Positions 1 through 23,118 of a DNA stretch of 24,357 nucleotides are shown here, in pieces. Source of the stretch: a virus; the IMG/VR virus record IMGVR_UViG_3300047490_000285, positions 1 to 24,357 of that record; one strand, written 5' to 3'. Made by a program: the position numbers and the translations under genes. Below the pieces are notes generated by a model. The model had not been told where the DNA came from and did not search any database. It saw only the letters and a program-made list of their open reading frames with translations. The first letter of the stretch is position 1, and the number at the start of each line of letters is the position of its first letter.

Positions 1-536
1 TCGGCGCATGCACGAAGATCGTCGACGGCACGCACGAGGCGAGTGTCGTGACTGCCGCTGCCGGCAACACTTCGGCTCTGACTCTCGACATCGACGACCT
101 GATCGCCTGTGCAGGCCGGCTTCCGCGTTACAGTCGTGCCAATGCGAAGTGGTACGTGAATCCGGCGGTCTTCGCGGCAAGCGTGCAGCGTCTCGGTCTC
201 GTGAACAACGTCGGACTCGCCGGCGGCAACACGGCAGCGAACCTCGCGGCTCCGGCCGAACTTCGTCTGCTCGGTGCGCCGGTCGTGTTCGTGCACACCA
301 TGTCCAGCGTGATCGGCACGGACCCGGGCGTGGTCAAGTTTCTGTACGGCGACCTCTCGCAGGCCGCCATGTACGCGACTCGTCGGGGCCTGACGATCAA
401 GAAGTCCGACGAACGGTACATCGAGCAGGATCAGTCGTTGGTGGTCTGCACCATGCGTTTCGATGCCGTCACGCATGACTGCGGCGACAACGTCAAGGCT
501 GGACCGATCGTGGCTCTCAAGACTGCGGCTTCGTGA
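1..536 (+). CDS. Major capsid protein, HK97 fold, C-terminal part (5' truncated)
   Basis: The reading frame is open from the window edge (codons start at base 3) and stops at 536, so the true start lies upstream. The visible 177 residues look like the C-terminal half of an HK97-fold capsid subunit: a WYVNPAVFAAS segment, a LLGAPVVFVHTM segment like the usual 'G.PV' strand of the A-domain, then GDLSQAAMYATRRGLTIKKS and a final strand with MRFDAV. That order (GD..., Y...R.G..I..S.E...., then R.D) is typical of the capsid family. It would form the icosahedral shell. Its position just upstream of connector and neck genes fits. The GTG at 48 is internal, not a start. The family call is from recognisable pattern, without an alignment. 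Confidence 0.8.
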   Translation, partial: GACTKIVDGTHEASVVTAAAGNTSALTLDIDDLIACAGRLPRYSRANAKWYVNPAVFAASVQRLGLVNNVGLAGGNTAANLAAPAELRLLGAPVVFVHTMSSVIGTDPGVVKFLYGDLSQAAMYATRRGLTIKKSDERYIEQDQSLVVCTMRFDAVTHDCGDNVKAGPIVALKTAAS

Positions 537-558
537 TAACTCTCTGGAGACTCTGAAC

Positions 559-984
559 GTGAATCATACGGAAGGCACCAAGACCGTCGCGAAGATCGCA
601 ACCGTGGCCGCCGACGGCGGATCGTTCTCGCACGAGATCGACACGCTCTACAGCGACTACGTCACGATCGACGTCGTCTACTCGACGCTGACCGCGACCG
701 CGGCGGCGTACTCGACGAGCCTGAAACTCCAGCAGAGCGACTCGGCGGGCAGCGGCCAGACGGACATCGGCGGCGTGTTCACCGTGACTCCGGTCGCTGG
801 CGTGACCACCGGCAACCACATCTGCCGGTTCAATGTCGACATGCGTGGGAAGAAGCGATACCTCACGGTCGTCGCCAATCCCGCCAAGCCGGCGACGGTG
901 GCGAGTGTCGCGCACCTGTCCAAGACCGAGGACATGCCGACGACCGCTGCCAAGGCTGGCGTGAGCAACTACGTCAGCGGCTGA
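559..984 (+). CDS. Small virion-type protein, unknown (possible head decoration protein)
   Basis: 141 residues from GTG 559, chosen because GGAGA at 545-549 sits at good Shine-Dalgarno distance; the frame is open further up to 463 but that part overlaps the capsid gene. The protein is rich in Thr, Ser, Ala and Val, with alternating patterns such as YVTIDVVYSTLTATAAAYST and FTVTPVAGVTTGNHICRFNV that suggest a beta-sandwich. There is no signal peptide, membrane segment or catalytic motif. It lies 22 bases after the capsid stop, where many siphoviruses place a head-decoration or minor structural protein. I do not recognise a family, so a virion role is inferred from position and composition only. 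Confidence 0.6.
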   Translation: MNHTEGTKTVAKIATVAADGGSFSHEIDTLYSDYVTIDVVYSTLTATAAAYSTSLKLQQSDSAGSGQTDIGGVFTVTPVAGVTTGNHICRFNVDMRGKKRYLTVVANPAKPATVASVAHLSKTEDMPTTAAKAGVSNYVSG

Positions 985-2711: not shown

Positions 2712-3052
2712 TGGAGAGGCCACTGCGTGCGGGAGACTTGCGAGAGTCGGTCATTATTGAGCAGCCGAGCGAAGCGACGAACGACTACGGGGAGACGACC
2801 GCGTCGTGGTCGATCAAGGCACGCCGCCGGGCTGCGATTCGGGGGCTTCGCGTCGACGAACTCATGTCTGCGCAAGGGCCGTATACAGTCGCCACGCACG
2901 AAGTCGAGTTTCGGTATGTCGCTGGCCTGACGAACGCGATGCGACTGATTTGGACGAGCCGCAGCCCAATCAGAACGCTCGACATCGTCTCCGTGACAGA
3001 AGTGAATAACCGCGAATACCACAGGCTGGTCGTCAAGGAGCAGGTGGGATGA
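2711..3052 (+). CDS. Head-closure / head-tail adaptor protein, SPP1 gp16-type
   Basis: 113 residues. The start overlaps the previous stop by one base (TGATG) and is preceded by a GGGGGCAG Shine-Dalgarno-like run. The opening (RAGDLRESVIIEQPSEATND, then YGETTASW) is the signature of the Phage_H_T_join family: 'aG.l..rV.i..p....d..G....w'. The end (RTLDIVSVTEVNNREYHRLV) matches the family's last strands, with '.i..v...n......l.v.'. The role is to seal the connector after packaging and bind the tail terminator. Length and neighbours fit. It overlaps the next gene as ATGA. Confidence 0.85.
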   Translation: MERPLRAGDLRESVIIEQPSEATNDYGETTASWSIKARRRAAIRGLRVDELMSAQGPYTVATHEVEFRYVAGLTNAMRLIWTSRSPIRTLDIVSVTEVNNREYHRLVVKEQVG

Positions 3053-3462
3053 CGAGATCGATCGTTCTTGAGGGAAGCACGCAAGTCATCGATTCCCTTC
3101 GCGGACTCGTCGAGTCTTTGGACGTCCCCTCCGCGATCGAGGACGGGGCTTCTTGGTTTGCGGAGAAAGTGCGAGAGAAGACACCTCCCGGGTACTCCGG
3201 GAAACTTCCAGAGTCCGTGTTGTACGAGGTCGACGACGACGGCGCGTATGTAGGCTTCGACGCAAGCGTCGAGACGGCGGGAATTGCGGCCCTCGACAGC
3301 GTAACCAGACCAAGAACCCGCGGCAGGAGCGTTCTCAGTCGCCCTGCGAAAGAGTGGGTTCAAGCAGAGGAACTGGCAAGCGTGCTGGAGCAATCGTTCG
3401 ACGACTATTCCTCCGAGGCAGCATCCGTAATCGAAGATGGCATCTCCAGAAAAATGGCTTAG
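3049..3462 (+). CDS. HK97 gp10-like neck / tail-completion protein
   Basis: 137 residues. The pattern fits the gp10-like family: an N-terminal helix region (QVIDSLRGLVESLDVP), an amphipathic helix (DGASWFAEKVREKTPPG) containing the conserved 'a..v...akalaP..tG.L..si' shape, here KTPPGYSGKLPESVLY, and a C-terminal acidic helix (LASVLEQSFDDYS). Such proteins act at the head-tail interface. The gene starts with an ATGA overlap, and its last 26 bases overlap the next gene in another frame. The family call rests on the central motif and gene order. Confidence 0.72.
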   Translation: MTRSIVLEGSTQVIDSLRGLVESLDVPSAIEDGASWFAEKVREKTPPGYSGKLPESVLYEVDDDGAYVGFDASVETAGIAALDSVTRPRTRGRSVLSRPAKEWVQAEELASVLEQSFDDYSSEAASVIEDGISRKMA

Positions 3463-3847: not shown

Positions 3848-4219
3848 ATGGCCTACGAGTCGTCGCAGGGAATCAGTTTCGTCTTCTCGGGCTCTGAGTT
3901 TTTGCTCACGTCGATTTCCGTGAGCAAGGGCGCCGCGGAGGTCGACACGTCGGACCTCAAACTGCCATACGGTTCGCAGCGGTCGTACCGCATCTCGCCG
4001 CTTCGCGACGGTGCGGAACTTCAGGTCGAGTTCTTCGGGCTGAATCTCCCGCAGCAGACCGCAACCGGCGCGATTACGTGGTCGGTTGATGGCAGCGGCA
4101 GCAATGCGCAGTTCACGACGGGCCTCCCCACCGCCGCGCTGTGCACGTCGGCGTCAGTGCAGGCGGCTGCCGGTGAACTGATTCGTGGCTCCGCTACTTT
4201 CCGGCTGACCTCGACCTGA
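3848..4219 (+). CDS. Tail-tube-like protein A
   Basis: 123 residues from ATG 3848 with AAGGAGG at 3831-3837. The sequence is beta-rich, without helices or membrane segments: GISFVFSGSEFLLTSISVSK, a VDTSDLKLPYG turn, ELQVEFFGL, and a closing IRGSATFRLTS strand. This is the shape of a small siphoviral tail-tube subunit ('G..i.i.g..l..t..s.......iD.t...', '...vef.G', 'g.v.g.aTf..t'). It lies between the tail terminator and the tail chaperone, where the major tail protein is expected. The following gene is clearly related, so either or both may form the tube. Which is the major subunit cannot be told from sequence. Confidence 0.75.
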   Translation: MAYESSQGISFVFSGSEFLLTSISVSKGAAEVDTSDLKLPYGSQRSYRISPLRDGAELQVEFFGLNLPQQTATGAITWSVDGSGSNAQFTTGLPTAALCTSASVQAAAGELIRGSATFRLTST

Positions 4220-4222
4220 CCG

Positions 4223-4672
4223 ATGACCCGGATCACGTCACAGGGCACGGTGGTGGTCTGGGCGGGAGTGGAACTGGAGGCGACCTCGGTCACCTACTCG
4301 GCATCTGCCGGCGACGAGATCGACATTACGTCGCTCGCGTCGTCGGTGAGGACAGACCCAAGCAACTCGCTGCGGAAGTTTGTCACACGAGAGTACGACT
4401 CGTGCTTCGCCGGCGAGGCTGCCGAACTGAGCGTGGAGTTTTTCGCGGCAGCCGGTGCGAATCTCGCAGAACTTGTCGGACACAAGAGGCCACTGTCCGT
4501 AGCGATGCCAAACAACGAGACGGGCGTATCGGTAACGACCATAACGAATCAGCCGTCGAGCCCAGCAAACGCATTTGCATGGTCCCGCGACGCGATACTC
4601 GCGAACCTGCAAATCACAGCGACCACCGGTGAGTATGTCAGGGGAACAGCGACGTTTCGGATGACGGGGTAG
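4223..4672 (+). CDS. Tail-tube-like protein B (paralogue of the preceding gene)
   Basis: 149 residues, three bases after the preceding stop and without a visible Shine-Dalgarno, so probably coupled. It shares landmarks with the gene before it, in the same order: an opening strand (VVVWAGVELEATSVTYS), EIDITSLASSV versus VDTSDLKLPYG, ELSVEFFAA versus ELQVEFFGL, and a closing VRGTATFRMTG versus IRGSATFRLTS. An extra segment (~residues 85-125, KRPLSVAMPNNETGVSV onward) makes it longer. The likely role is a second tail-tube subunit or a tube-tip or minor tail protein. The relation is seen in the sequence; the division of labour is unknown. Confidence 0.72.
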   Translation: MTRITSQGTVVVWAGVELEATSVTYSASAGDEIDITSLASSVRTDPSNSLRKFVTREYDSCFAGEAAELSVEFFAAAGANLAELVGHKRPLSVAMPNNETGVSVTTITNQPSSPANAFAWSRDAILANLQITATTGEYVRGTATFRMTG

Positions 4673-5031: not shown

Positions 5032-5321
5032 ACCGCCCACGACGCCTGTTCGAGTTTCGTCTCGCTCTCGCGTTGGGGCGGTCGCATGCCGAACTTCTTG
5101 AGTCGGTCGATGCGGCCGAACTCGCAGAATGGGAGGCATACTGGACAATAGAACCATGGGGAGATGAGTGGCGACAGGCCGCTCGTCTCGCCACGGCTCT
5201 GTGCACGGCATGGGGCGCGAAGGGTCTCAAGGAGGAGACGCTCATGCCAAGCCACCGCAAGCGTCGCCAGACTGCTTCTGAGATGTTTTCCGAACTCGCC
5301 CGACTCGGAGGCGAGAAGTGA
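5025..5321 (+). CDS. T domain of the frameshifted tail chaperone (G-T fusion)
   Basis: This is the -1 frame continuation after GGGAAAC. The 98 residues start LLDRPRRLFEFRLALALGRS, then AELLESVDAAELAEWEAYWT and IEPWGDEWRQAARLAT. That matches the T-domain type of phage tail chaperone ('...R.ala.g.t..eL...m...El..W.ay...eP.g..r.d...a.i'). The first start-like codon is TTG 5073, without a Shine-Dalgarno, and it would omit the conserved RLALALG part, so expression by frameshift is the better reading. The G-T product is thought to recruit tail-tube subunits to the tape measure. The stop overlaps the tape-measure start as GTGA. Confidence 0.85.
   Translation, partial: LLDRPRRLFEFRLALALGRSHAELLESVDAAELAEWEAYWTIEPWGDEWRQAARLATALCTAWGAKGLKEETLMPSHRKRRQTASEMFSELARLGGEK
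5031..5083 (+). promoter_or_regulatory. Putative frameshift-stimulating stem-loop
   Basis: GACCGCCC at 5031-5038 is perfectly complementary to GGGCGGTC at 5076-5083. The stem begins five bases after the slippery heptamer, the distance expected for a -1 stimulator. The 37-base loop contains a second small hairpin, CGAG/CTCG (5051-5054 with 5061-5064). Pairing is read by eye; its stability was not calculated. Confidence 0.7.
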
Positions 5322-8300
5322 CCATCGGAAGCATTCGCGTTGCTTTTGAGTCTGACCTTGACGACCTTCAGACGGGCGTCGAGGAGTCGATCGAACTCAT
5401 CGAGTCGCTCAAGGACGCCGTCGACGAAGTCAGCGAGGCCGTCGAGCAGATCGAGAAGAGTCGTGTCGAGGTGACGACGGCCGTCGACAAGTCCGAGTTC
5501 GATGCCGTCAGTAAAGAAATCGAAGACTCTTCCGCGACTATGGCCGTAAAGACGGTCATTGACCAGTCTCCTGTGGATCAGGCGAAGGACGATATCGAAA
5601 ACCGCCCTGCCGCGAGACTGGAGATCAAGATCGACATCCTCGCGGTCGAGAAGATTCTTGACGTAATCAACGGGTTCGTTGACAAGGTTAAGGAATCCAT
5701 CGAGGCGATAGGGTCAAATCTGCTGTCCGAGGTCGGCAAGTCGATATTCAAGTTCCTTGGCCCGCTCGGCGCAGCCTTCAAGGTGACGGGCGTTCTGACC
5801 GGCTCGTACGAGAAGCAACTGCACCAAGCCGCAGACGCCACCGAAAACTTAGTGAACCTCTCTGAGCGTTTCGGAGTCACGTACAACGCAATGGAACGCA
5901 TTGCGGAGTCGGCCTCAGCCGCCGGCGTGTCGATGTCGATGCTCGCCAAGGCGCAGACCACGCTGTTGCAGAATGCGTCAAAGGTCAAGATCGGTCAGGT
6001 AGACAGCGAGAACGCCAGAGAGGCGCAAATCTCGTTTAATCGACTTGGCATTTCGCTGGATCAACTCAGGACTCTCAGTCCCGACCAGACGCTCGAACTC
6101 GTGGCAAGCCGCATCACGGCCGTCGAGAACGCGAGCGACCGGGCGGCCATCGCGTTTGATCTCTTCGGCAAGACAGGCGCCGCAATTCTTCCGGCCCTCA
6201 AGGGCATTGAACAGGCCCGGAAGGATATGGAGAGGTTTGGGGCCGAAACGAGCAAGGTCAACCTCAAGCGGCTCGAAGGCCTCGACGAATCATTCGACCG
6301 GCTCTCGATGGCATCGAAGGCACTGTCTGGGACGATGCTATCGCCGCTCGTTCCGATTCAGACCGGCTGGAACAATCTCCTCGCCGACATCAAGGGCGGA
6401 TTCAACAAACTTCTGACTCCACTCTCGACGGGTCTTGCTTCGGCGCTTACCGGCTGGCAAGTGTTTTTCGAGGTGGTCGGCAGAGGCGTAAACATTTTGC
6501 TGCGACTCGCCGGCGCTGCTGCTGAGGTTGCGGTTGCGTTTTCCAATGCGCCTGTGCTCGCCGTCGGCTGGCAGGCGCTTTCGAGCGCGATTATGGACGT
6601 GTACGCGCTCGTTGAGCGACTCGTCGTCGTCGTTGAGGCGGTTGCTTCCTCTATTTCGTCGGCCCTTACTCCGGCAGCCGAGAACTTCAAGAAGTTCGTC
6701 GACATTTCCGCTCCGGCCGGCTCTGTTGCGGACTGGGGGAAAAAACTACTCGTCGCGGCAGGGTACCTCGGCAGCGTCATTGTTACGCTCGGCATCGGCC
6801 AAGCAGCCGTCACGGCATTCGGAGGTGCGTCCGCGGTTAGTTCCGCGAAGGTCGTCGCCGGCAACCTGCTGGCAAGCCTCTCGTTTTCCGGTCTTATGAA
6901 GTCGGCCATTGCGGCCTTTCGGTTCGTGACCATCGGCGCGACCGGCATGGCCGCCAAGTATGTGTCCCAGATGATTCTCATGGGAACATCAACGCTTGCG
7001 TCTTTCATTGCGCCGTTTCTGGCAGGCGTTGCCTCGTTCGTGACGGGCAGTGCTGTCATGGCAACGTCCGCGACAGTCACGGGCTACGCGATGGCTGCCG
7101 CTTGGATCATCGGAACCCTCGGAATTGCCGCAATCATTGTCGCAATTATCGCGGTCATACAGAACTTTGGCACGCTCTATGACTACTTCGCTAACTTCAG
7201 CGAGAACGCCGAGCGGCTGTTCACGCTCGACGGTCTCGCCGAGGCAGCCAAGGCAGTGGCAAAAGCGATTCTTGACGCTTTCGTTGGTGTCGTGAAGGGC
7301 ATCGGCGGCATTGTCGGCAATATCATCAAGGCGATCATCGGCGGGCTCACTGGAATCAAGACCCCTGAGTCAGTAAACGCCGCGAAGGCCGACGCCGAGG
7401 AGATTGCCGCCGCCAGAAAGCGAGAGCAGGAGGCAGCGCTCGCGAGAGAAAAAGCGATCGCCAAGGTTAAGGCTGACATCTCAGGGCTCGGAGTCGTCTC
7501 GGCTGGCCTCGGCGCTCTTGGCGACCTGACTGGAATTGAAGAACTATCCGACGCGGCAGATAACATCAAAAACGCTTATGACGGGATCGCCGCAGGGCCG
7601 GCAGCGGTCGCCGACGAGACAGACAAGGTGATCGAGGTCGTGAACTCTGCGAGAGACTCGCTCAACTCAGCCGTCGTTGATGCTGCTAGGTTCGGCGATG
7701 CTGGCAAGGAAGCGGCGATCGAGGCGAGCGATGAATTCAAGAAATTGCAGCAGCGGTTTGCCGAGAACAAACTCAGCCCGGAGCAGTTCGAGGCGGAGGC
7801 TAAGAGAATCCGCGACGCACTTGAGCAGAACATCGGCAACCTCGACGTCCTGACGGACAGCGACATATTCGATTTCTCGAAGAAGGTCGCAGACGCAGGA
7901 AAAGAAGCCAGAGCAGAGATCGCCAAGATCGGCCGCGGACAAGACCTCGGCAGCACGTTTTCGACAGACCGTTTCTTTCCTACGTCGGACGCAATCAAAG
8001 AGGCGGGCAGTAAGTTTCAGAAGGATTTCGAGGAGCGAAATAAGGAGATCGCCAAGAAACTCGCATCCGGCGAGTTTGGCGACGGGCAGGCCGCCAAGGA
8101 TGCAGCGGCTGATGCGTTCGCTGCCAGCAAAGAGCAATTCGATCGAGACCTCGGCAAGATCAATGCCGACGTTTCTTTCGCGTCCGATATCCGCAAAGCC
8201 CTCGAAGACGCGTTCCTCACTCCTGCCGATATGTTCGAGAAGCGGCTGAAGGAGATCGCCGAGAACAAGTCGCTGACTGACATCGAGAAGAAGCAGGCGG

Positions 8301-9544
8301 CCGCCATGGAGGGCCGCAAGTTTGTCGAGTCGCAGTTCGGAAAGACCGCCGGAGAGAGCCTGCGAGAGAAGTCTCAAGCGATCGACGTGGCGGCGGCGGC
8401 TGGAGCCTTCGAGCCCGGACGAGAAGCCGTCGAGCGACGCAAACTTGCGATGGAGAAAAAGCAAGCCGCGGGTCTTGACGCGACGGCCGGAGAGCAAGTG
8501 CAGTCCGGCGTCGACAAGATCAACGACGCCTTCGGTGTGACCGGCAAGACGATGGCCGAGATACAAGCCACGCTGTCGCCGAAGGAGTTCGAGGAGTATC
8601 AGAAAGCCATCAAGAACAATGCCGACAAGGTGAAGGAGAGCCTCGGCGTCGAAAAGACCGGGGCGCAGAAACTGGCCGAGTCTCGCGAAAAACTCGATCA
8701 GGCGTTCCAAGACGGCGTCATCACTGCCGACGAGCGAGACAAGGCGCTGAAGAAGCAGAAGGACTCACTGCTGTCGTCGCTGGGAATCAGCAAGTCGCCG
8801 GCCGAAGACTTCCAAGCCGCCGTGGATCGCATCAAGGAGAACGCCTCTGCGTTGTCTCCCGACGAGATCGCGAAAGGCCTGAAGGAGGCCAAGGACAAAC
8901 TGCTGTCCGCCCTCGGCATCGACAAGTCGCCAGCGCAAGCAGCGGCCGAGTCGCTGCAAAAACTCAACGAGGCGTTCTCGAAGGGCCAGATTTCGCAGGA
9001 GGAGTTCGCGAAGGGAGCCCAGAAGGCTCGCGACACGCTCCTTCAGAGCCTTGGCATCCCTCTGGACCCAGTCAACGCACTCCGCGATCGCATGGACGAC
9101 CTCCGCGAGGCTTTCTCTCGGGGCCTGATCACTCAAGAGCAGTTCGCGAAGGGGCAGGAAGAGGCCCGGCGATCGATGCTGCCCGGCGGTGAGGCCAAGA
9201 GTCCGGTCGCTCAGTTCCGGGAAGACCTCGACGCCGTGAATCGCGCGGTGTCCGAGGGTCTCGTCAGCGAAGAGGAGGGAGCCGCCAGACGACTCAACTT
9301 GCAAGCCGACCTTCAGGAGAACCTGAAGCCCGCTCTCGACAACCTCCAGCAAGACCGCAGGCAGGTCGGTGCGTCGGACGTTCGCAGCCGCGAGGGCGTG
9401 GATACGTTCTTCCGCATTCTCCAAGGGCGAGACAACCCGTCGCTGAAGGCTCAATTGGAGATCGCGAGAAACACGCGACTGCTCGCGCAGGCGGCCCAAG
9501 ACCCAGACGCCGCGCCGGTCATCGCACAACTCTCAGCGAGATGA
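5318..9544 (+). CDS. Tape measure protein
   Basis: 1408 residues from GTG 5318, overlapping the T-frame stop. It runs right after the G/G-T chaperones, where the tape measure always lies. The N-terminus (~1-70) is a charged heptad-rich coiled coil. Residues ~135-365 carry the Ala/Leu-rich region typical of phage tape measures (for example LFGKTGAAILPALKG). Two hydrophobic blocks, ~380-445 and ~475-620, hold several potential membrane segments (WIIGTLGIAAIIVAIIAVIQ among them), as used for DNA entry into the host. Residues ~690-1050 are a long charged helix. About 1055-1337 is a run of ~45-residue repeats (separate entry). The protein sets tail length and is ejected at infection; by the usual length rule it implies a long tail, about 200 nm. 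No lysozyme or peptidase motif was recognised. Confidence 0.93.
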   Translation: MTIGSIRVAFESDLDDLQTGVEESIELIESLKDAVDEVSEAVEQIEKSRVEVTTAVDKSEFDAVSKEIEDSSATMAVKTVIDQSPVDQAKDDIENRPAARLEIKIDILAVEKILDVINGFVDKVKESIEAIGSNLLSEVGKSIFKFLGPLGAAFKVTGVLTGSYEKQLHQAADATENLVNLSERFGVTYNAMERIAESASAAGVSMSMLAKAQTTLLQNASKVKIGQVDSENAREAQISFNRLGISLDQLRTLSPDQTLELVASRITAVENASDRAAIAFDLFGKTGAAILPALKGIEQARKDMERFGAETSKVNLKRLEGLDESFDRLSMASKALSGTMLSPLVPIQTGWNNLLADIKGGFNKLLTPLSTGLASALTGWQVFFEVVGRGVNILLRLAGAAAEVAVAFSNAPVLAVGWQALSSAIMDVYALVERLVVVVEAVASSISSALTPAAENFKKFVDISAPAGSVADWGKKLLVAAGYLGSVIVTLGIGQAAVTAFGGASAVSSAKVVAGNLLASLSFSGLMKSAIAAFRFVTIGATGMAAKYVSQMILMGTSTLASFIAPFLAGVASFVTGSAVMATSATVTGYAMAAAWIIGTLGIAAIIVAIIAVIQNFGTLYDYFANFSENAERLFTLDGLAEAAKAVAKAILDAFVGVVKGIGGIVGNIIKAIIGGLTGIKTPESVNAAKADAEEIAAARKREQEAALAREKAIAKVKADISGLGVVSAGLGALGDLTGIEELSDAADNIKNAYDGIAAGPAAVADETDKVIEVVNSARDSLNSAVVDAARFGDAGKEAAIEASDEFKKLQQRFAENKLSPEQFEAEAKRIRDALEQNIGNLDVLTDSDIFDFSKKVADAGKEARAEIAKIGRGQDLGSTFSTDRFFPTSDAIKEAGSKFQKDFEERNKEIAKKLASGEFGDGQAAKDAAADAFAASKEQFDRDLGKINADVSFASDIRKALEDAFLTPADMFEKRLKEIAENKSLTDIEKKQAAAMEGRKFVESQFGKTAGESLREKSQAIDVAAAAGAFEPGREAVERRKLAMEKKQAAGLDATAGEQVQSGVDKINDAFGVTGKTMAEIQATLSPKEFEEYQKAIKNNADKVKESLGVEKTGAQKLAESREKLDQAFQDGVITADERDKALKKQKDSLLSSLGISKSPAEDFQAAVDRIKENASALSPDEIAKGLKEAKDKLLSALGIDKSPAQAAAESLQKLNEAFSKGQISQEEFAKGAQKARDTLLQSLGIPLDPVNALRDRMDDLREAFSRGLITQEQFAKGQEEARRSMLPGGEAKSPVAQFREDLDAVNRAVSEGLVSEEEGAARRLNLQADLQENLKPALDNLQQDRRQVGASDVRSREGVDTFFRILQGRDNPSLKAQLEIARNTRLLAQAAQDPDAAPVIAQLSAR
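8480..9333 (+). repeat. ~45-residue repeats in the tape-measure C-terminus
   Basis: About five to six degenerate units of 41-46 residues follow one another, the clear ones from 8663. The shared pattern is 'SPA..f...l..l..AF..G.Is.eeFakg...aR..LL.sLGI'. Examples are LDQAFQDGVITADERDKALK, LNEAFSKGQISQEEFAKGAQ and LREAFSRGLITQEQFAKGQE, linked by LGISKSP, LGIDKSP and LGIPLDP. The AF..G.I..EEF core resembles short helix-turn-helix hairpins such as SHOCT-like segments. Repeat units usually alter tail length or flexibility. Confidence 0.75.
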
Positions 9545-9547
9545 GCC

Positions 9548-10525
9548 ATGCCAGAGAACAACTACACGACGGTCTGGACGCCGAACATTCCCGGGATCGT
9601 CGACTGCCGCGAACTGTATCGAGGCCGCGCGAGAACGGCCAATCTCGAAGGCACGCCGACGTACGTGCGTGACTTCCTCGTGCGAACGTCCACCGGCGCG
9701 CCGAACATGCGGCTCGTGGCCGCGGCCCCCGGCCCGAACTGGCGAGACCCGTATCCCGACGACGCGAACTGCATCCTCGTCGATAGCAATGTCAGGCAAG
9801 ACGGCGAATCGCCGTTCCACTACCGGGTCACCTTCACCTACAGGTTTCTCGACGAAACGGACCGCATTCCATGGCTTCGGCCGTCCGTGTTCTCGTTCTC
9901 TGGCTCGCTCGCGAGTGCTCCGGCGTTCTGGTACTACCCGAACGCTGGCGACAATGCCACGAAGCGGGTCATCACGAACACTGCTGGCGATCCGCTGTCT
10001 GGGCTTGATCGCGACGAGGGCGAGTTCAATGTCACGATCTCGTACAACCAGCGACCTCCGTTCAATTTTCAGCGAGCCCAACTCTACGTCGGCGCGATCA
10101 ACTCAGACACATGGAGCGGCGGGGCTCCAAAAACTTGGAAGGTGATGAGCATCACCGCGAACCAGAAGTACGAACTCATCCAGCCGAACACGCCGAACGA
10201 CAGCCCTGTGAAGGGCTACTACTGGGAGACGCAGATCACTCTCGGGTATCGCAACACGGGCTGGGACTTGCAGACGTGGGACGTCGGATTCAACGAGATC
10301 GTGGGCGGGCAGCGACGAAAGATTCTTGCCGGCAGCGAGCCGGTAAGCGAGCCTGCGGCCCTGACGAACGGCGTCGCGAAGACACCGGGCCAGCCGCCGG
10401 ACCTTCTCGTGTTTCGTATCTATCCGATGCTTCCGTTCACCGGCATCTTCGAGCCGATCCCCGACACGGCTCGGTATCCGAACGCGTTCCCGTACAACGT
10501 CCTCGCGAACTACTACGGGTGGTGA
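9548..10525 (+). CDS. Putative tail-tip / distal tail protein, unknown family
   Basis: 325 residues, starting three bases after the tape-measure stop. The sequence is beta-rich and aromatic: PFHYRVTFTYRFLDE, FNVTISYNQRPPFNF, YYWETQITLGYRNTGWDLQT, ending LANYYGW. Strands such as KGYYWETQITLGY resemble those of virion jelly-roll or galectin-like domains. There is no signal peptide, membrane segment or catalytic motif that I recognise. The position after the tape measure is where distal-tail (Dit) or tail-associated proteins usually lie, which is the only basis for the role. Size and strand content fit a Dit-like protein, but no diagnostic motif was found. Confidence 0.6.
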   Translation: MPENNYTTVWTPNIPGIVDCRELYRGRARTANLEGTPTYVRDFLVRTSTGAPNMRLVAAAPGPNWRDPYPDDANCILVDSNVRQDGESPFHYRVTFTYRFLDETDRIPWLRPSVFSFSGSLASAPAFWYYPNAGDNATKRVITNTAGDPLSGLDRDEGEFNVTISYNQRPPFNFQRAQLYVGAINSDTWSGGAPKTWKVMSITANQKYELIQPNTPNDSPVKGYYWETQITLGYRNTGWDLQTWDVGFNEIVGGQRRKILAGSEPVSEPAALTNGVAKTPGQPPDLLVFRIYPMLPFTGIFEPIPDTARYPNAFPYNVLANYYGW

Positions 10526-10527
10526 CA

Positions 10528-10917
10528 GTGAAGCAGAGGAATCAGCCGTCGAACCGCGGAGATCAGCCGGTCACGTTTCGCCACAGCGATGCACAGAGAA
10601 TCGCAAACGCCGTGGCGGCACACGAGGGCGGGCGGCGAGATCGCAAGCCAAGCCAGTTGCCGAGGGCAGCGGGCGGCGGCGGCGGTGGCTCTGAACTCAG
10701 AACGGCGACGTTTCTTGGTGGCTGGCTTAGAGGAACCTATCGTGTGATTAACTTTGACGGCCATAACGTGGCATTTGGTTCGACCAACACGGCCGTGTGT
10801 CTCAATATCACCAATCACATATACGGCGTCGGCTCTTCGACCGCGGCGAGGCGGTGTTTCGTGACCCTTGCTCCGACAACCGTTGGAGACTACTTGCTCG
10901 TCAGCGCTCAGCACTAG
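10528..10917 (+). CDS. Small tail-region protein, unknown
   Basis: 129 residues from GTG 10528; GTG 10522, overlapping the previous stop as GTGA, is an alternative. GGTGG just upstream is a weak Shine-Dalgarno. The N-terminus (TFRHSDAQRIANAVAAHEGG) is a basic amphipathic helix. A six-glycine linker (~residues 52-57) separates it from a beta-rich domain (FLGGWLRGTYRVINFDGHNV, ..., YLLVSAQH) that could be a small virion-surface domain. The longer frame upstream to 10111 lies inside the preceding gene and is not real coding. It is eight bases from the start of the giant tail protein, so probably in the same operon and acting with it. I do not recognise a family. Confidence 0.6.
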   Translation: MKQRNQPSNRGDQPVTFRHSDAQRIANAVAAHEGGRRDRKPSQLPRAAGGGGGGSELRTATFLGGWLRGTYRVINFDGHNVAFGSTNTAVCLNITNHIYGVGSSTAARRCFVTLAPTTVGDYLLVSAQH

Positions 10918-10924
10918 GGCAGCA

Positions 10925-13900
10925 ATGAACCCGCAGGACACGTCACGCTCGTGCCATTCCGGCGAGGCTGGCTTTTTGTCTGCCGGAGATCAACGCGCGT
11001 ACGAAAACACCCGGGCGCTGGCGTCGCATGGCAGGCTCGTCGACAGGGTCACTGGCGACAGAAAAATTCCGCACAGCGAAAACGCCCAGTGGAAAAAACT
11101 CTCCACAAACGGCCTGACTCATTGCGGAATCGCCGACGACGGATCGCTGTGGGCTTGGGGTGCCCCTCCGCTCGGAGATGGGACGATAACGGGCAGCGAA
11201 CAACCGCGACTAATTAGCAGCGACAAGTGGATCGACGTAAGCGTCGGTCGTGTTGACAAAACCCGCGGCGCGCAAGTACTCCAAAGCACCACGGTGTACA
11301 GTTCTCCTGTCGCATATCAATGGCCGGTTGTCTCGTTTGAGAACTCCGATAACCCCGATTGTCGCGCGACTTATGTTCTTGCCATAAGAGAGTCTGACGG
11401 CTCTCTGTGGGGCTGGGGCAGTAACGTGGGTGGAGTCCTTGGGAACGGAAAGGCTGCCCCCGGCCTCTTGGAAATCCGCCCCCGTGTGTATTTGTCTGGG
11501 TCGGTGTCTTCTGTTACTCCACTTCCGGCTTCTCCAGTTGAAATTTTCTTCAACTCCATCGACCCGTACGGCAATCTCACGGTGAAGTCCGATGACCCGG
11601 AAGGAGACTCGTTAGTCACTCGGAGGGCAGTCATAAAGCCACGCATCCGTACGGAGTTCGTCACGCCCGGAGGTGATTTGTTTGTCAACAACTACGGAGA
11701 GTACAGGTCGACGCCCACTATAGAGACTTACATCGTCGACGAAAGTGGAAACGAAATCACAGCGAGCGACGAGACGCAGCATGCGTCGTTCGATGCAGCC
11801 ATCATGTATAGCGTCGTTGGCGTGACAGTAGTAAGCCAGTCGGCGCCGACGAGAGGGCCTGTCGTGGTAAGTTTCTCTGGAAGAAGGCTTCCGGACTCGT
11901 CGCACGCCTCCGCCGAATGCACGGTGGATGCAGCGGGTTACGTCACATCTATCAGCGTGCTGGACGGTGGTTTGTACGAAGAGCCGCCCAAGGCGGCTGT
12001 CAACGCTTCTGGGGCGGAAGTCCAAGTCAGCGTCGTTCTGGCGGCCAAGGTCAGGGGCGTGCGAGCCAAGACACGAGGCGTCTACTATGACCGCTTTGAT
12101 CGCATAAGAGTGAGGGCAAAAGCGCCTCCGGCGGACGTCATCTCGGAGGCGGTCATAGTTCTCCCGCTCGATGCGCCATTCTTGAGCGTGTCGTATGAGT
12201 CCTTTGAGGTTCTCGACGGCGGGGACGGATATACGGTTATTGACGGGCTCGAAGGCACCGGACCCGGAATGTCATCGCATCGGCTGACTGCAAGAACGCC
12301 GCCCACATCGAACGTGATAGCGCCGCAGGGCTTTCAAGTTGGCCTGTGCTCGCTGGCTCCATCGCCCACGAGAGGCCTGTCGCTAACGCCGACAACAACC
12401 GCATCAGCGTTGACTACCGCAACACGAATTATCACAAGCAGTCGATACGGCCTCTACTCGCTGCCGTACGCGACGACGAGTCAGACCATTCTCGTGGGAT
12501 CGTATTTTTCGTCCTCGCCTCCGCCGGCCGTCACGGCGAGGGTTATCTGGATAGGCTCAGACCGCACGCCCGTGCCGTGCACAACCGCGTGGTCGCTGTT
12601 TTATGGCAATATCTATCGACTAAGAGTGGTTGTACCTTCGATCTACGACCCCGTCAGAGACTCTACGCCCGTTATTGAGGTGAACGTCCCGACGATGGTA
12701 GTTGACGACCAAGACGACGGGAACGTCACTGGCGGAATAGAGAAAGAGATTGGCACGTTCGGAGGGGCTATGCGATATTGGAGCCCCGGTGCGGTGTACA
12801 CGGGCGCTGGCGAGGTAGAGCGGACCTTCGCAGGCGGTGATGTCTGGCGCCCCGCCGACTCCTCGGGCATACCCAGAACATTTAAGAAGTACTGGGAATA
12901 CGTGCCCAATAGCGTTGCCGGTGGAGGTGGTCGGTGGTATCCGGTCGCGCAACAAAAAAGTTTACTCCGCGTGGTGACTACAACTCCGGCGCATACTCGC
13001 CTTGTTGGCTTTGACCTGCACCCATCCGGCATCGGCAACAGGCTTGAATACTTCCCGCAGCGTGGCTTTGAAGTGCAGCCTCTGTCTATTGCGTGGGCAG
13101 GCGGAGAAACAGGCACAAGAAGGGTGTCCATGTCGGCGACACACTCAGCGACAGAGCGCGACACTGTGAGCATTACGGTTTCGATCGACGAGCAAGGGGC
13201 GGGGTACGAAACCGAGCCGCTTCCGGTCATTACAAACCTAGTGCTTTCGTTGTCGCCGAGCGACAATGCGAGGCAGTATACGAGCGTCTGCGCGATGACG
13301 CTCGCCAACCGCTCGGCAGCGGTTTCTGGCGGCCGTGTATATGAATGGGGCGAGCAAAGTCTGACAGGCTTGTATCGCCCGTCGCTTCGGCCGTACTCCC
13401 TTTCGATAAAAGCGCCTGACTACCCGACGCATATCTCGCTCGTGTCGCCGTCTGTATGGATAAACGCATGGCTGAGCGGCGTCTCGAAGCCGATCGTTCC
13501 GGTGTGCGCCATGTTTGGCGGCTCCCCCGCATACGCCATTCGCATGCCAAAAGATGAGTTTCCTGAAGAGGTGATGCTTTCTCGCTCGGTTGAGTTTTAT
13601 GGACCGTCAGGAGTCAATTCGCAATCCGGTGGAGGCATTGGGCTCGATCGCTCGCCCACAGGCCTTGAGGTTATTTTCCCCCCGACTGGCGGCGGGTGGA
13701 TTACTGCCCCGCCGTCAACCGACGAGTACTCCTGCAAGGTCATTAAGCCTGCCGAGCCGGTCAAGGCTATCTCTAGGAGGCAATCTCGACCGCCGCCCGA
13801 CATTAACTCGCTCAATCTTTTTCGCGAAACAAACGACCTGATAGTGGTCGACGCGAATGATGACACTTGGATTCTGAGAGAAGACCCAGTTCGCGACGCC

Positions 13901-16900
13901 GGAAACGTCTATCCGAGAGACGGCGCTGTTAATTTGAGCGACCATACAGCGCAACTGCGCTCAACTCGCATTGGGCCTCCAGTCCTGACGAAAGTCTCGG
14001 AATCGCTTCCATCGGTCAAGGCTTCCTTCGCAGTCGCGCCCGAGTTTGTGATCACTGGCGGCGACGGCAAGACTTATCAGCAGTTCGAGTTCTGGGACCG
14101 CACGCAGAGCGTTTCGCTGAAGACATCATCATTGCCACCTGCATATTTGTTCTGGGGCTACGACCCCATCGAGTCGTGGGATGAGAGCGATCACTATGTC
14201 GTTCTCGAACCCTCGTCGGAGTCATACCCTTTTATTTCCTTGGACAGTAAAAGCGCAGTCACTCTCAAAAGAACAGGCGGGGAATACGCCCGCGTCACTG
14301 TGGGCGCCCAAAAACTTGATGGTGCATGGGACATAACCTACTCCACCGCAGATAAGACACAGAGTTTGACGAGCGGAATCGTATCTGCGTCCGGGACCGT
14401 GCATTTGCAGCCCTCGACACTCACATACACGCAGTTGCCAAAATATGAAGCATCAGTCTCGGCCGAATGGGACAACAACACGCTCAGCGTGTCGCTTTGC
14501 AATGGCAAGATAGAGAACGTGTACTCCTCGTCGATTGACATGATAATATCGTCTCGTCCGGTAAATTCTAGTTCCTTTGACTTCTACTGGACGCAACTTC
14601 CGTCATTTGAATTGTCTGTAAATGGAGTTGCTATACCGCTTTCGCTCGTGACATACAGACTCGACAGGTTCGTTGGCGATGCAGTCAAGATTCACAAACC
14701 TACCGTGTCATTGAAAGCGCATCCGGAAGTTGCTGACTTTGCGATCATGCCCGATGGCACTGCCCAATTCATAACAGACGGCTTTTTCGGAATGCATCGG
14801 CAAGCGGCGTCGGCAAGCGGCGTCACGTCTCTTTCGGCGTCCGGTTTTATCTCATGCGACGGAGGAGTCCAGTACTGCGGGGCAAATTCGTATTCGACCT
14901 ATCGAGTCCTGACAATTGAAGGAAATGCCTACCTCAGCAACATAGACATCGACGTGACAGACGGCGGTGAGGACTACACTGAGGTGCCGTTGGTCACTCC
15001 GTCGTTTGTGCCGAATGGCATTGCTCATGTCGAAGCCACGATAGACGGAAAGGTGGAGTCCATCGGCCTTGAGAAGAAGGGCTCTGGCTTCAAAACCCCA
15101 CCCACTGTCGTCTTCTCTGGCGGAGAGGGCAGCGGCGCGGAAGCCGAGGCAAAAATCGAAGGGCCGCTCGGCGAGATTGCCGTCGCCAATGCCGGCAGTG
15201 GCTATGACGTGCCGCCGGAGGTCCGGCTCGTGGGAAGAGGCATAGCCGCCATGGCAACCGCCCGCGTCTCGGGCGGCGCGGTTCAGGCGATAGACATCTC
15301 CTACGGAGGCCTCTATCAAGTCTTGCCAACTGTGCAGTTTGTTTCTAGCAAGCGAGTGGTTTCAATCTCTGTCACAGACGGCGGCGACGGCTACTCGTCC
15401 GCGCCGAGCGTTGTTGTGTGCGGCCGCGGCTCAGGCGCGGCTGGCTTTGCCGTGATCTCCGCCGAACTGAGTGATGTAATCATCGAGTCTGGCGGCGGCG
15501 GATACGACGCAAGTCTTCCGCCATCGGTGGAGGTCGTCTCAGTCGACGGATTCGGCTCCGGCGCGGAAGTGTCTCTAGTCGTCGATCCGGAGACTGGCAT
15601 CGTCTCGTCGGCGACGATCAACTCGCCCGGCAGCGGATATCGCCTTCCGCCGCAGTTGATCGTGTCTGGCGGTGGTGGATGCCGCCTTGTGGCGAAGATA
15701 TCGGGCTTCGTCGAGTCCGTCGTTGTCACCGCTGGAGGACACGGCTACAAAACTCCGCCTGTTGTCTTGTTTCAGGGAGGGGGCGGGAGTGGTGCAACGG
15801 CCACTGCCTCAACCCAAGACATCGGCAGCGGAGCGACGGCGTCGGCGACGCTCAATGGATATGTCTATGGCGTTGTGGTGACAAACAAAGGCTCCGGTTA
15901 TCAACACTCGCCAGATGTGTTCCTTGTCGGCGGAGGCAACGCCACCGCTGCGGCTGCTTACAGTGCCTTGCAGGCAGGCGACATCTCTCGCAAGGCATAC
16001 AACGACACGCCGTCCGTTGCCGTGGCTCAGGCACGGATAGAAGGCAGGATGTCGAACCTTACGGTGGTCTCTGGTGGCAGCACATATTCATCGCTTTTCA
16101 ATGGCGGCAGCCTGAAGCGTGAGACTGACTATCGCCGGTCTCACGCAACCGGCATAGACCCGGTTTTCTTCTCATTCGGACCTCGTTTCCAGTCGACTGC
16201 CGTGCCCGGAGACAGTTTTTTTTGGAACGACACACGCGACGATCAAGCGAGGATGCTGCATCCATCGTGGCTTATGGTTCGCGAACTGAACGCCGGCCTG
16301 CTCCTTGCAACAGACAAATATCCTGACGGCAGCGTATACGCCACTGGCGGAACAGAGAGCGTGCAGGATGTGTTTTTCCAGCGACCGCTGATTGTTCCGT
16401 GCAACGGCCATCTGTTCTATGTTTCGGGAATTGAGGGCAGCAGGACGGTGTCTGCCGCTGTTCGCTCGCCATACACTTTCAGTTTGTCGCGGGCGTCAGC
16501 AAATTACGGCATCGACGTTCTAACGGCCAGCGCGATGAATGTGTTTCGGTGCGAAGACCTTACCGGCAAAACACTAACAAGAGCGGTTATCGATGGCTAC
16601 AATGCGGGGCTCTCTGGATACTACGGGCAAGGCGTTAGGCTCTCTAGCGGAATGATTCTTAATCACGTTCGCTTTTCTGCGCCGCCGGTTTTTGTTCTCT
16701 CAGACCCCGCAGGCACGGGCGCATCTGTGCAGTGTTCACTCGACGAAAGCGGGAAGATAGTTTCGCTCGACGTCGCTGCGCAGGGCGCCTCGTATACGGA
16801 GAAGTGCGTTGTTGCAATGTCTTCGTGCAACGTGAAGAAAGCAGCGTGCGAGTGCGAGTGCGTCGTGTCCGCATCTGGCTCGATCTCACACATAGTCGTT

Positions 16901-17704
16901 ACGTCGCCGGGCAATGGGTTTATTTCGCCGGTTGCTGTTATTCACGGGGGCGGTGGCTCTGGAGCAAACTGCCGCGCTGTTACCGTCTTGTCGGACTCGC
17001 CCTCTGGAATTGCCGCTGTGACGGTCATAGACGGCGGCAGTGGATACTCGCAGCAGAGCCCGCCATCCGTGTATATCTACGACGCGATCGACGTTGATGC
17101 GAAAATCGCTGAGGAGTTCTCTGCCGCGGCCCGCGACTTCCCGTTGAGGTCGAGCCCGAAGACTCTGTTGGAATCTGGCGCTCAACCGTTCGGGCCGACC
17201 TTCTCGTACGGCAAGACGTGCGGCTGGTTCACGGGTGCGACGATTAGGCACTGCGACCCCGAAAGAATAGACTTGGCGGCCACCGACGCGAGTTCGCGTG
17301 CTTTCTTCAACTCATTCGACGTGCAGCACGACGGGTTCGACGGGCTTCTGTCTCACGATACCCCTGACAGTTTCTACGCACGTTACGGTTACGGCTTCCA
17401 TGGTGGCAACAATAGCGGCGTCTACGACGAGACAGAAGTCCCTAAAAGACCGCGATTTCATCTCTTCAAGAGATTCAACAAGATAACAAGCGTTCGGCAT
17501 GTGTCCCCGCCGTACTATCGCATTCCGTCAAGCACGAGCGGCATCTTGCCTGCGACGGCCGCGCCGTACACATCGATGCCTGCCCTGTCTTTTCAAGGCG
17601 CGACCTCGTCGCGGCCCCCATCTGTCTCAGTGTCGGAGGCGAAGTTCGACAGCGGCGTTTCTGACGTTGGGCTCGGGACTTTTCTCATCAAGAGGAAGTC
17701 GTAG
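10925..17704 (+). CDS. Giant tail/adhesin protein with RCC1-like and GSGY-type repeats
   Basis: 2259 residues from ATG 10925; the frame is open to 10868 but that part overlaps the previous gene. The N-terminus has RCC1-like motifs: HCGIADDGSLWAWGAPPLGD (~62-81) and RESDGSLWGWGSNVGGVLGN (~152-172), as in beta-propeller blades. Similar pieces recur (MTLANRSAAVSGGRVYEWGE ~792, LLLATDKYPDGSVYATGG ~1793). Long blocks of GG.GY..PP.V..GGG.GA repeats lie at ~1338-1690 and ~1944-2056, and five Cys cluster at ~1961-1979. There is no signal peptide or membrane segment. Size, repeats and place after the tape measure suggest a host-recognition tail-tip or fibre protein; this is inference. Codon use is more A/T-rich than the flanks (one 60-base line, 14581-14640, counts 43% GC against 70% at 23761-23820), hinting at separate ancestry. 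No depolymerase or peptidase motif was recognised. Confidence 0.75.
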   Translation: MNPQDTSRSCHSGEAGFLSAGDQRAYENTRALASHGRLVDRVTGDRKIPHSENAQWKKLSTNGLTHCGIADDGSLWAWGAPPLGDGTITGSEQPRLISSDKWIDVSVGRVDKTRGAQVLQSTTVYSSPVAYQWPVVSFENSDNPDCRATYVLAIRESDGSLWGWGSNVGGVLGNGKAAPGLLEIRPRVYLSGSVSSVTPLPASPVEIFFNSIDPYGNLTVKSDDPEGDSLVTRRAVIKPRIRTEFVTPGGDLFVNNYGEYRSTPTIETYIVDESGNEITASDETQHASFDAAIMYSVVGVTVVSQSAPTRGPVVVSFSGRRLPDSSHASAECTVDAAGYVTSISVLDGGLYEEPPKAAVNASGAEVQVSVVLAAKVRGVRAKTRGVYYDRFDRIRVRAKAPPADVISEAVIVLPLDAPFLSVSYESFEVLDGGDGYTVIDGLEGTGPGMSSHRLTARTPPTSNVIAPQGFQVGLCSLAPSPTRGLSLTPTTTASALTTATRIITSSRYGLYSLPYATTSQTILVGSYFSSSPPPAVTARVIWIGSDRTPVPCTTAWSLFYGNIYRLRVVVPSIYDPVRDSTPVIEVNVPTMVVDDQDDGNVTGGIEKEIGTFGGAMRYWSPGAVYTGAGEVERTFAGGDVWRPADSSGIPRTFKKYWEYVPNSVAGGGGRWYPVAQQKSLLRVVTTTPAHTRLVGFDLHPSGIGNRLEYFPQRGFEVQPLSIAWAGGETGTRRVSMSATHSATERDTVSITVSIDEQGAGYETEPLPVITNLVLSLSPSDNARQYTSVCAMTLANRSAAVSGGRVYEWGEQSLTGLYRPSLRPYSLSIKAPDYPTHISLVSPSVWINAWLSGVSKPIVPVCAMFGGSPAYAIRMPKDEFPEEVMLSRSVEFYGPSGVNSQSGGGIGLDRSPTGLEVIFPPTGGGWITAPPSTDEYSCKVIKPAEPVKAISRRQSRPPPDINSLNLFRETNDLIVVDANDDTWILREDPVRDAGNVYPRDGAVNLSDHTAQLRSTRIGPPVLTKVSESLPSVKASFAVAPEFVITGGDGKTYQQFEFWDRTQSVSLKTSSLPPAYLFWGYDPIESWDESDHYVVLEPSSESYPFISLDSKSAVTLKRTGGEYARVTVGAQKLDGAWDITYSTADKTQSLTSGIVSASGTVHLQPSTLTYTQLPKYEASVSAEWDNNTLSVSLCNGKIENVYSSSIDMIISSRPVNSSSFDFYWTQLPSFELSVNGVAIPLSLVTYRLDRFVGDAVKIHKPTVSLKAHPEVADFAIMPDGTAQFITDGFFGMHRQAASASGVTSLSASGFISCDGGVQYCGANSYSTYRVLTIEGNAYLSNIDIDVTDGGEDYTEVPLVTPSFVPNGIAHVEATIDGKVESIGLEKKGSGFKTPPTVVFSGGEGSGAEAEAKIEGPLGEIAVANAGSGYDVPPEVRLVGRGIAAMATARVSGGAVQAIDISYGGLYQVLPTVQFVSSKRVVSISVTDGGDGYSSAPSVVVCGRGSGAAGFAVISAELSDVIIESGGGGYDASLPPSVEVVSVDGFGSGAEVSLVVDPETGIVSSATINSPGSGYRLPPQLIVSGGGGCRLVAKISGFVESVVVTAGGHGYKTPPVVLFQGGGGSGATATASTQDIGSGATASATLNGYVYGVVVTNKGSGYQHSPDVFLVGGGNATAAAAYSALQAGDISRKAYNDTPSVAVAQARIEGRMSNLTVVSGGSTYSSLFNGGSLKRETDYRRSHATGIDPVFFSFGPRFQSTAVPGDSFFWNDTRDDQARMLHPSWLMVRELNAGLLLATDKYPDGSVYATGGTESVQDVFFQRPLIVPCNGHLFYVSGIEGSRTVSAAVRSPYTFSLSRASANYGIDVLTASAMNVFRCEDLTGKTLTRAVIDGYNAGLSGYYGQGVRLSSGMILNHVRFSAPPVFVLSDPAGTGASVQCSLDESGKIVSLDVAAQGASYTEKCVVAMSSCNVKKAACECECVVSASGSISHIVVTSPGNGFISPVAVIHGGGGSGANCRAVTVLSDSPSGIAAVTVIDGGSGYSQQSPPSVYIYDAIDVDAKIAEEFSAAARDFPLRSSPKTLLESGAQPFGPTFSYGKTCGWFTGATIRHCDPERIDLAATDASSRAFFNSFDVQHDGFDGLLSHDTPDSFYARYGYGFHGGNNSGVYDETEVPKRPRFHLFKRFNKITSVRHVSPPYYRIPSSTSGILPATAAPYTSMPALSFQGATSSRPPSVSVSEAKFDSGVSDVGLGTFLIKRKS
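14938..15990 (+). repeat. Tandem GSGY-type beta repeats (nine units)
   Basis: About nine degenerate units of ~25-50 residues run in tandem. Each reads roughly 'V.sI.V...GsGY..PP.V.f.GGGGSGA.A.A'. Clear cores are KKGSGFKTPPTVVFSGGEGS, NAGSGYDVPPEVRLVGRG, DGGDGYSSAPSVVVCGRGSG, SPGSGYRLPPQLIVSGGGG, AGGHGYKTPPVVLFQGGGGS and NKGSGYQHSPDVFLVGGGN. The motif class is widespread in virion proteins of environmental phages. Confidence 0.85.
16755..17100 (+). repeat. Second GSGY-type repeat block (three units)
   Basis: Three further units of the same repeat: a degenerate first one (VSLDVAAQGASYTEK) that carries most of the cysteine cluster, then SPGNGFISPVAVIHGGGGSG and DGGSGYSQQSPPSVYIYD. About 760 bases of unrelated coding separate it from the first block. 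Confidence 0.75.
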
Positions 17705-17709
17705 CGCCC

Positions 17710-17985
17710 ATGAGAGACCACCACTTCCTCCTGAACGGACTCCGCTGGCTCTGGCGATACTCGCCGCTCAAGGGCACGGCAGACGGCTGGACCGAGTTCT
17801 CGAAGCGGAAAGTCTTGATTGACTCAAGACTCAACGGCCGCGCGAGGCTCGAAACCGAGTGCCACGAAGCACTCCATGCCATCCTCGGGCCCGACATCGT
17901 GTCGGAGGAGTGTGTGACGCGATCGGCCCACGAACTGTCTCGCGTCCTCTGGTCGCTCGGCTATAGGTTGCCGCCGGACCCATAG
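17710..17985 (+). CDS. HExxH mini-protein, putative zinc-binding peptidase-like
   Basis: 91 residues, five bases after the giant gene, with GAGGAAG at about 17692-17698 upstream. The central helix ETECHEALHAILG holds HEALH at residues 52-56, an exact HExxH zinc motif, followed by an EE pair at 66-67 that could give the third ligand, and a closing helix AHELSRVLWSLGYRL. This shape, 'E..HE.LHa.......EE.v...a..l..vL..lG', is that of small phage metal-binding proteins related to minimal zinc peptidases. No substrate-binding domain is present, so activity alone is uncertain; it may bind metal without cutting. It shares direction with the tail operon but may belong to the following early genes. Confidence 0.6.
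   Translation: MRDHHFLLNGLRWLWRYSPLKGTADGWTEFSKRKVLIDSRLNGRARLETECHEALHAILGPDIVSEECVTRSAHELSRVLWSLGYRLPPDP

Positions 17986-20951: not shown

Positions 20952-23105
<2,154 letters not shown>

Positions 23106-23118
<13 letters not shown>

Follow-up and report, generated by a model that had tools for sequence, protein, structure and literature searches.

What kind of protein closes the tail module of an uncultured phage family, and is it a beta-propeller whose blades have been drawn apart by repeat arms? The question is raised by virus record IMGVR_UViG_3300047490_000285, which comprises 24,357 bases, is possibly a fragment, and was analysed over its whole length (hereafter the window). A sequence-only reading had described a 2259-residue open reading frame at 10925-17704 and proposed for its product a propeller with blades separated by beta-repeat arms, possibly a new architecture for host recognition. 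The open reading frame is as described, with an ATG at 10925 and a stop codon ending at 17704, and the frame is open already from TTG 10868. Its product is called P0001 here.

Position of the giant gene in the tail module and in its phage family

The gene of P0001 is the final gene of a siphovirus-type tail module. Upstream lie, in order, genes for a head-tail connector, a head completion protein, a tail terminator and two tail-tube-like proteins (assigned by position and mutual similarity, without a family match), followed toward P0001 by a tail assembly chaperone, a tape-measure protein, a conserved 325-aa protein and a small protein. Downstream are a small HExxH protein and then a nucleotide kinase, and P0001 therefore closes the module. 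The features used here are:

5318..9544, + strand: tape-measure protein, 1408 aa, indicating a long-tailed phage and a tail-tip place for P0001
9548..10525, + strand: conserved 325-aa neighbour, the query for finding the phage family
10519..10917, + strand: small protein in the interval between the 325-aa neighbour and P0001, proposed start codon at ~10519
10925..17704, + strand: gene of the giant tail-tip protein P0001 (2259 aa, followed by a stop codon), assigned by open reading frame and module position

Several other genes of the window deserve mention. The small HExxH protein (HEALH, 17710-17985) has a weak likeness to a phage metalloprotease family (E 0.026). The two adjoining tail-tube-like genes (3848-4669) resemble paralogues, with 29% identity in a cross-match via relative L005. 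A 262-aa protein in the head-tail module (1082-1870) has no Pfam match but reads like a glycosyltransferase, and is 100% identical in L002. At 21230-23115, a GDP-mannose 4,6-dehydratase (E 2e-141) is followed by a GDP-fucose synthase-like epimerase (Epimerase E 2e-51), possibly a phage-encoded sugar-nucleotide pathway.

Megablast of the record against the phage collection gave no match, and P0001 as query found no close relatives in viral or genome contigs. P0001 is too divergent for direct search, and the family was therefore reached through the conserved 325-aa neighbour, which recovered 42 viral loci. In about 24 of them a giant open reading frame follows the tape measure and its neighbours in the same slot, shares the GSGY block and/or blades with P0001, and encodes 1.6-2.9 thousand residues where complete. 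The slot is occupied by a different large protein without recognisable RCC1 blades in L020, L025, L035, L036 and L038, and L018/L019 have no large open reading frame there after the 325-aa neighbour gene. The 325-aa neighbour was found neither in cultured phages nor in sampled bacterial genomes, and the search for a host by prophage or cultured phage gave no match.

A predicted RCC1-type propeller discontinuous in sequence

The sequence-only reading had placed 'DGSLWAWG' motifs over the whole protein, which is an overstatement: the exact motif (DG[ST]LW[AG]WG) has only two copies, at residues 72 and 158, both within the first 165 residues, and the sole other near-motif strings are GGRVYEWG (802) and DGSVYATG (1801). 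In Pfam, full-length P0001 yields RCC1 only, below threshold (E 0.009), and its residues 36-445 yield RCC1_2 at 23.7 bits (cutoff 22) and RCC1 at 22.8 bits (cutoff 21.7); RCC1_2 is found in 15 of 15 family members. A profile of the family matches PDB sequences of HERC1 (8e-27), UVR8 (3e-26) and RCC1 (3e-19). A blade profile built from relatives only recovers blades 1 and 2 of P0001 (best of 20 shuffled sets, 7.7 bits), and under profiles made with the window excluded, blades 1, 2 and 3 reach 50, 46 and 20.9 bits, the match to blade 3 covering residues 780-812 (E 1.6e-8). The best of 200 shuffles scored at most 5.7 bits, so that none of the 200 reached the score of any of these blades. With the same profiles, blades 4-6 are not detected in P0001 by sequence alone; the sequence-recognisable blades thus number three, all inside the first 36% of the protein. 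The blades and insertions are as follows:

11084..11218, + strand: RCC1-type blade 1, residues 54-98 (50 bits; AlphaFold2 strands at pLDDT 87-95)
11228..11458, + strand: RCC1-type blade 2, residues 102-178 (46 bits; Pfam RCC1 above cutoff on the segment; AlphaFold2)
11459..13174, + strand: residues 179-750, the long insertion that parts blade 2 from blade 3; its G.GY units (e.g. at 337-374 and 422-437) are degenerate
13241..13360, + strand: RCC1-type blade 3, residues 773-812, with GGRVYEWG (20.9 bits; AlphaFold2 pLDDT 84-95)
13361..13726, + strand: residues 813-934, the insertion that separates blade 3 from blade 4
13727..13876, + strand: blade 4, residues 935-984, with DANDDTWIL (alignment position; AlphaFold2 pLDDT ~48-84; inside the RCC1-fold structural match)
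14708..14938, + strand: residues 1262-1338, tentatively blades 5 and 6 (evidence from the family alone)

The alignment of about 24 relatives contains up to six ordered blade positions. Against a profile of classical blades only, the six blade columns (25 sequences) score 53, 73, 40, 18, 16 and 21, and none of 43 control windows exceeds 9.1; the positions were chosen from matches in one member, L015, and these scores therefore include some selection. A seventh blade is at most partial and occurs in few members, and neither ring closure nor a seventh blade of P0001 is seen in the alignment or the models. An N-terminal CC.P..Y.W-like motif ahead of blade 1 occurs in L024, L026, L027, L029, L031, L033, L123 and others, and is missing from P0001, L002 and L006; it is possibly a ring-closing strand.

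Structure prediction by segments, which had been proposed as a check, was carried out with AlphaFold2 for residues 40-1040 of P0001 and residues 15-1214 of the relative L015. The P0001 model is only moderate overall (mean pLDDT 61.1, pTM 0.56), and the L015 model (mean pLDDT 48.8) is unusable past blade 4, where pLDDT falls below 50. The absence of propeller blades from models had been named as evidence against the sequence-only reading, and both models show blades: blades 1-3 are four-stranded and confident, and blade 4 is moderately confident. Within the insertions, residues 259-379 between blades 2 and 3 are modelled at pLDDT ~85-91, and an insert of ~30 residues in blade 2 (114-143) has low confidence. 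For both models the top PDB matches in Foldseek are RCC1-fold proteins, and no named nozzle protein is among the structural matches listed for the P0001 model. In VIA-align, positions 6..955 of the P0001 model superpose onto 3090..3294 of HERC2 7q40_A (Z 19.9, 3.0 A, 185 residues); the same model matches UVR8 4d9s_A with Z 20.1 (2.8 A, 186 residues), and 41..829 of the L015 model superpose onto 117..312 of UVR8 4d9s_A (Z 23.6, 2.6 A, 180 residues). In the models, blades 1-4 of P0001 pack like consecutive RCC1-fold blades across gaps of ~570 and 120 residues. Since the superposed ranges span the inserts, the chain is predicted to exit the ring after blade 2 for ~570 residues and then return. 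A weak match of the whole of P0001 to a sugar methyltransferase (E 0.04) was judged to be chance.

Taken from profiles and models, P0001 very probably contains an RCC1-type propeller that is discontinuous in sequence, and the proposal of blades separated by beta-repeat arms is borne out to this extent. The first 1,000-1,340 residues would form one RCC1-type beta-propeller, with the chain running through blades 1 and 2, a 570-residue beta-rich insertion, blade 3, a further insertion of 120 residues and blade 4, to which the family would add two more blades and then a long GSGY repeat block. On this reading, the wide spacing of the blades along the chain would come from the repeat-rich arms that intervene.

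In blade sequence and predicted fold, P0001 resembles the propellers of RCC1, UVR8, HERC1/HERC2 and BLIP-II; the exchange-factor, E3-ligase and light-sensing roles of eukaryotic RCC1 proteins are not transferable to it. Whereas classical RCC1 proteins have a blade every ~50 residues, only blades 1 and 2 of P0001 sit close together and its later blades are 120 to 570 residues apart. The same blade profile also found stand-alone RCC1-like phage proteins (viral contigs L042-L115). Unlike P0001, these are uninterrupted propellers of ~380-460 residues or long contiguous runs, with repeats ~50 residues apart and mostly without GSGY units between blades. Such stand-alone proteins are known from phage phAPEC6, which encodes eleven of them (PMC7247149). 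Among the viral contigs, L042, L046, L049, L074, L089 and L106 carry single open reading frames of ~2,900-3,700 residues in which RCC1-type repeats, ~50 of them or more, follow one another without a break, and L047, L052, L054, L055, L058 and L073 each carry several paralogous stand-alone propeller genes in tandem.

GSGY repeats at blade junctions and beyond the predicted propeller

Blocks of GSGY repeats had been placed between the blades by the sequence-only reading. This holds for the degenerate units between blades 2 and 3 and for a unit before blade 3, whereas the main block lies after the blades. The G.GY..P repeats lie chiefly in residues 1339-1723, as eight strong units and weaker ones, scoring up to 49 bits. 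The relevant features are:

13175..13234, + strand: G.GY..EP unit abutting blade 3, residues 751-770 (40 bits jointly with blade 3)
14939..16093, + strand: residues 1339-1723, main GSGY block and best conserved stretch of P0001
16673..17083, + strand: second GSGY block, residues 1917-2053, several units
16805..16861, + strand: five-cysteine stretch, C1961, C1968, C1975, C1977 and C1979

In the stretch from blade 2 to blade 3 the units are degenerate, and two of them, at 13.5 and 10.7 bits, score higher than the best of ten shuffles (8.6). Immediately ahead of blade 3, 21 of 24 sequences match the pattern of a G.GY..P unit and the others have related forms; the G and P of this unit are invariant in the alignment and its E is nearly so. 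A similar unit stands ahead of blade 4 in many relatives, and in the family alignment the GSGY block continues directly from blade 6. G.GY..P units would thus mark blade junctions and carry on past the propeller to form a long stretch of repeats.

The main block matches phrog_701 (E 1.8e-38) and is ~26-33% identical to virion proteins of T4-like cyanophages. The likeness to these proteins (phrog_701, phrog_19630, phrog_708, phrog_460) is limited to the repeat itself, and no propeller blades were matched in them. No phage record covers 80% of P0001; the best covers 18%, residues 1330-1727. By sequence, a solved homologue was found neither for the GSGY block nor for the 325-aa neighbour.

The five cysteines at 1961-1979 had been suggested to bind metal or form crosslinks. 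Their positions are confirmed, but not one relative has all five together, the pair C1975 and C1979 recurs in only four relatives, and the positions are mainly occupied by small residues, e.g. Ala, Gly, Pro and Thr. A conserved metal-binding or crosslinking feature was accordingly rejected.

Divergence of the giant gene and the role of its product

Between viruses whose neighbouring genes are almost identical, the gene of P0001 has been exchanged or has diverged strongly. The backbone common to relatives stops within the small protein at 10519..10917. Against L002, the closest relative of the window by backbone, the flanking DNA is 90.6%, 93.4% and 93.5% identical, and nothing is alignable over 10688-17716. 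Most neighbouring proteins have 90-100% identity, compared with 25-35% in local matches of P0001. L005 has the whole tape measure in common with the window, with DNA 94% identical up to position 10800, and the beginning of its giant protein is only 48% identical to that of P0001. The protein most similar to P0001 is instead that of L006 (identity of 32-36% in the C-terminal two thirds); this mismatch between giant protein and backbone is consistent with gene exchange, and fast divergence is a possible alternative from these sequence comparisons. Within the giant protein, mean identity is 0.42-0.54 for insertions and 0.55-0.65 for blades, a modest gap over 14 related pairs of moderate similarity, and L012 and L015 (83% identical) differ by a 176-residue indel within the arm between blades 2 and 3. 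DGR-driven variation would call for a reverse transcriptase, and RVT_1 had no match in the window or in ten relatives' contigs, all of which may be fragments.

Elsewhere in the window, the tape-measure gene has a second swapped region that makes up its N-terminal two thirds (5383-8465), with no DNA alignable to L002, L004 or L006 and 94% identity to L005; the L006 tape-measure protein has ~1861 aa. A 137-aa protein (3049-3462) is 52% identical to its L002 counterpart, and most surrounding genes are ~90-100% identical.

As the last and most divergent gene of the tail module, P0001 is the best candidate for host binding, and its tail-tip position and divergence make a receptor-binding role moderately probable. 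The whole reading that we consider likely is that P0001 is a host-recognition protein made of a propeller scaffold and variable arms. P0001 would be part of the virion, with the propeller as a rigid ring or scaffold at the tail tip, and the arms and GSGY region would reach outward, offer variable surfaces and bind a surface receptor.

The main rival casts P0001 as a structural hub or a nozzle-like scaffold, in which a propeller with beta domains inserted in it would make up or line the tail tip and carry other receptor binders. In the nozzle protein of SU10 (T7 gp12 type), a propeller of seven blades has its nozzle domains inserted after blade 2 and before blade 3, and these domains rearrange during infection (PMC9509320). 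By the blade numbering used here, this is also the site of the largest insertion of P0001, and GSGY repeats are found in baseplate-wedge and virion structural proteins; as they also occur in structural baseplate and neck proteins of cyanophages, they need not bind a receptor. The likeness of P0001 to the SU10 protein is one of arrangement only, a propeller with domains between its blades: the SU10 inserts are Ig-like whereas the repeats of P0001 are GSGY units, and SU10 is short-tailed with its nozzle protein on an adaptor, whereas the tape-measure protein preceding P0001 implies a long tail rather than one of the nozzle type. Furthermore, P0001 is the most divergent gene in the module, and in the window, itself possibly a fragment, no other recognisable receptor binder precedes the downstream nucleotide-metabolism gene. 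We regard a hub or nozzle as unlikely. A propeller in a siphophage receptor-binding protein has a precedent in Gp45 of phi11, where the propellers carry the presumed receptor site (PMC4901313). That protein shares with P0001 a propeller in a siphophage, host recognition being the inferred role of P0001, but it is trimeric, with a five-bladed propeller and a helical stem, and is not of the RCC1 type with long inserts.

It is very improbable that the RCC1-like part is a short fragment limited to blades 1 and 2, the remainder being an unrelated beta-repeat protein with no ring across the insertions. The restriction of the exact motif to these blades, the full-length Pfam result below cutoff and the failure to detect blades 4-6 in P0001 alone all fit this explanation, but the score of blade 3 at 780-812 with the window left out, the packing of blades 1-4 as consecutive RCC1 blades in both models and the six family columns, all above the 43 controls, argue against it. 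Least credible is a propeller enzyme, e.g. a surface-glycan hydrolase placed on its substrate by the arms, for although endosialidases are among phage propellers (PMC4901313) and one weak structure match is to a protein named endosialidase (E 0.011), the propeller of P0001 is of the RCC1 and not the sialidase type and no catalytic family was found in P0001.

The claim of a new architecture stands only in part. Each element is already known: phages have RCC1 propellers, virion proteins have GSGY repeats, phi11 Gp45 is a receptor binder with a propeller (PMC4901313), and the SU10 nozzle is a propeller into which domains are inserted (PMC9509320). The literature and databases searched held no instance of their combination, an RCC1 ring opened by GSGY-bearing arms at several junctions and encoded by a hypervariable tail-tip gene. 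The literature search also returned no RCC1-type phage receptor binder, and several text matches to 'RCC1' were locus tags or strain numbers.

P0001 links in one protein RCC1 blades and GSGY repeats, both very common yet poorly understood in phages, and proposes a place for each, the blades as ring and the repeats as arms. Automatic annotation misses such a discontinuous propeller, as the sub-threshold RCC1 match of the full-length protein illustrates, and would have to be directed at split propellers. If the arms set host range, the uncultured phages of this family would become comparable arm by arm. More speculatively, and with a low probability in our view, the propeller may be a modular docking ring in which the GSGY units at the junctions are exchange points for whole beta-repeat arms; host range would then evolve by change of arms, while the ring and the remaining virion stay constant.
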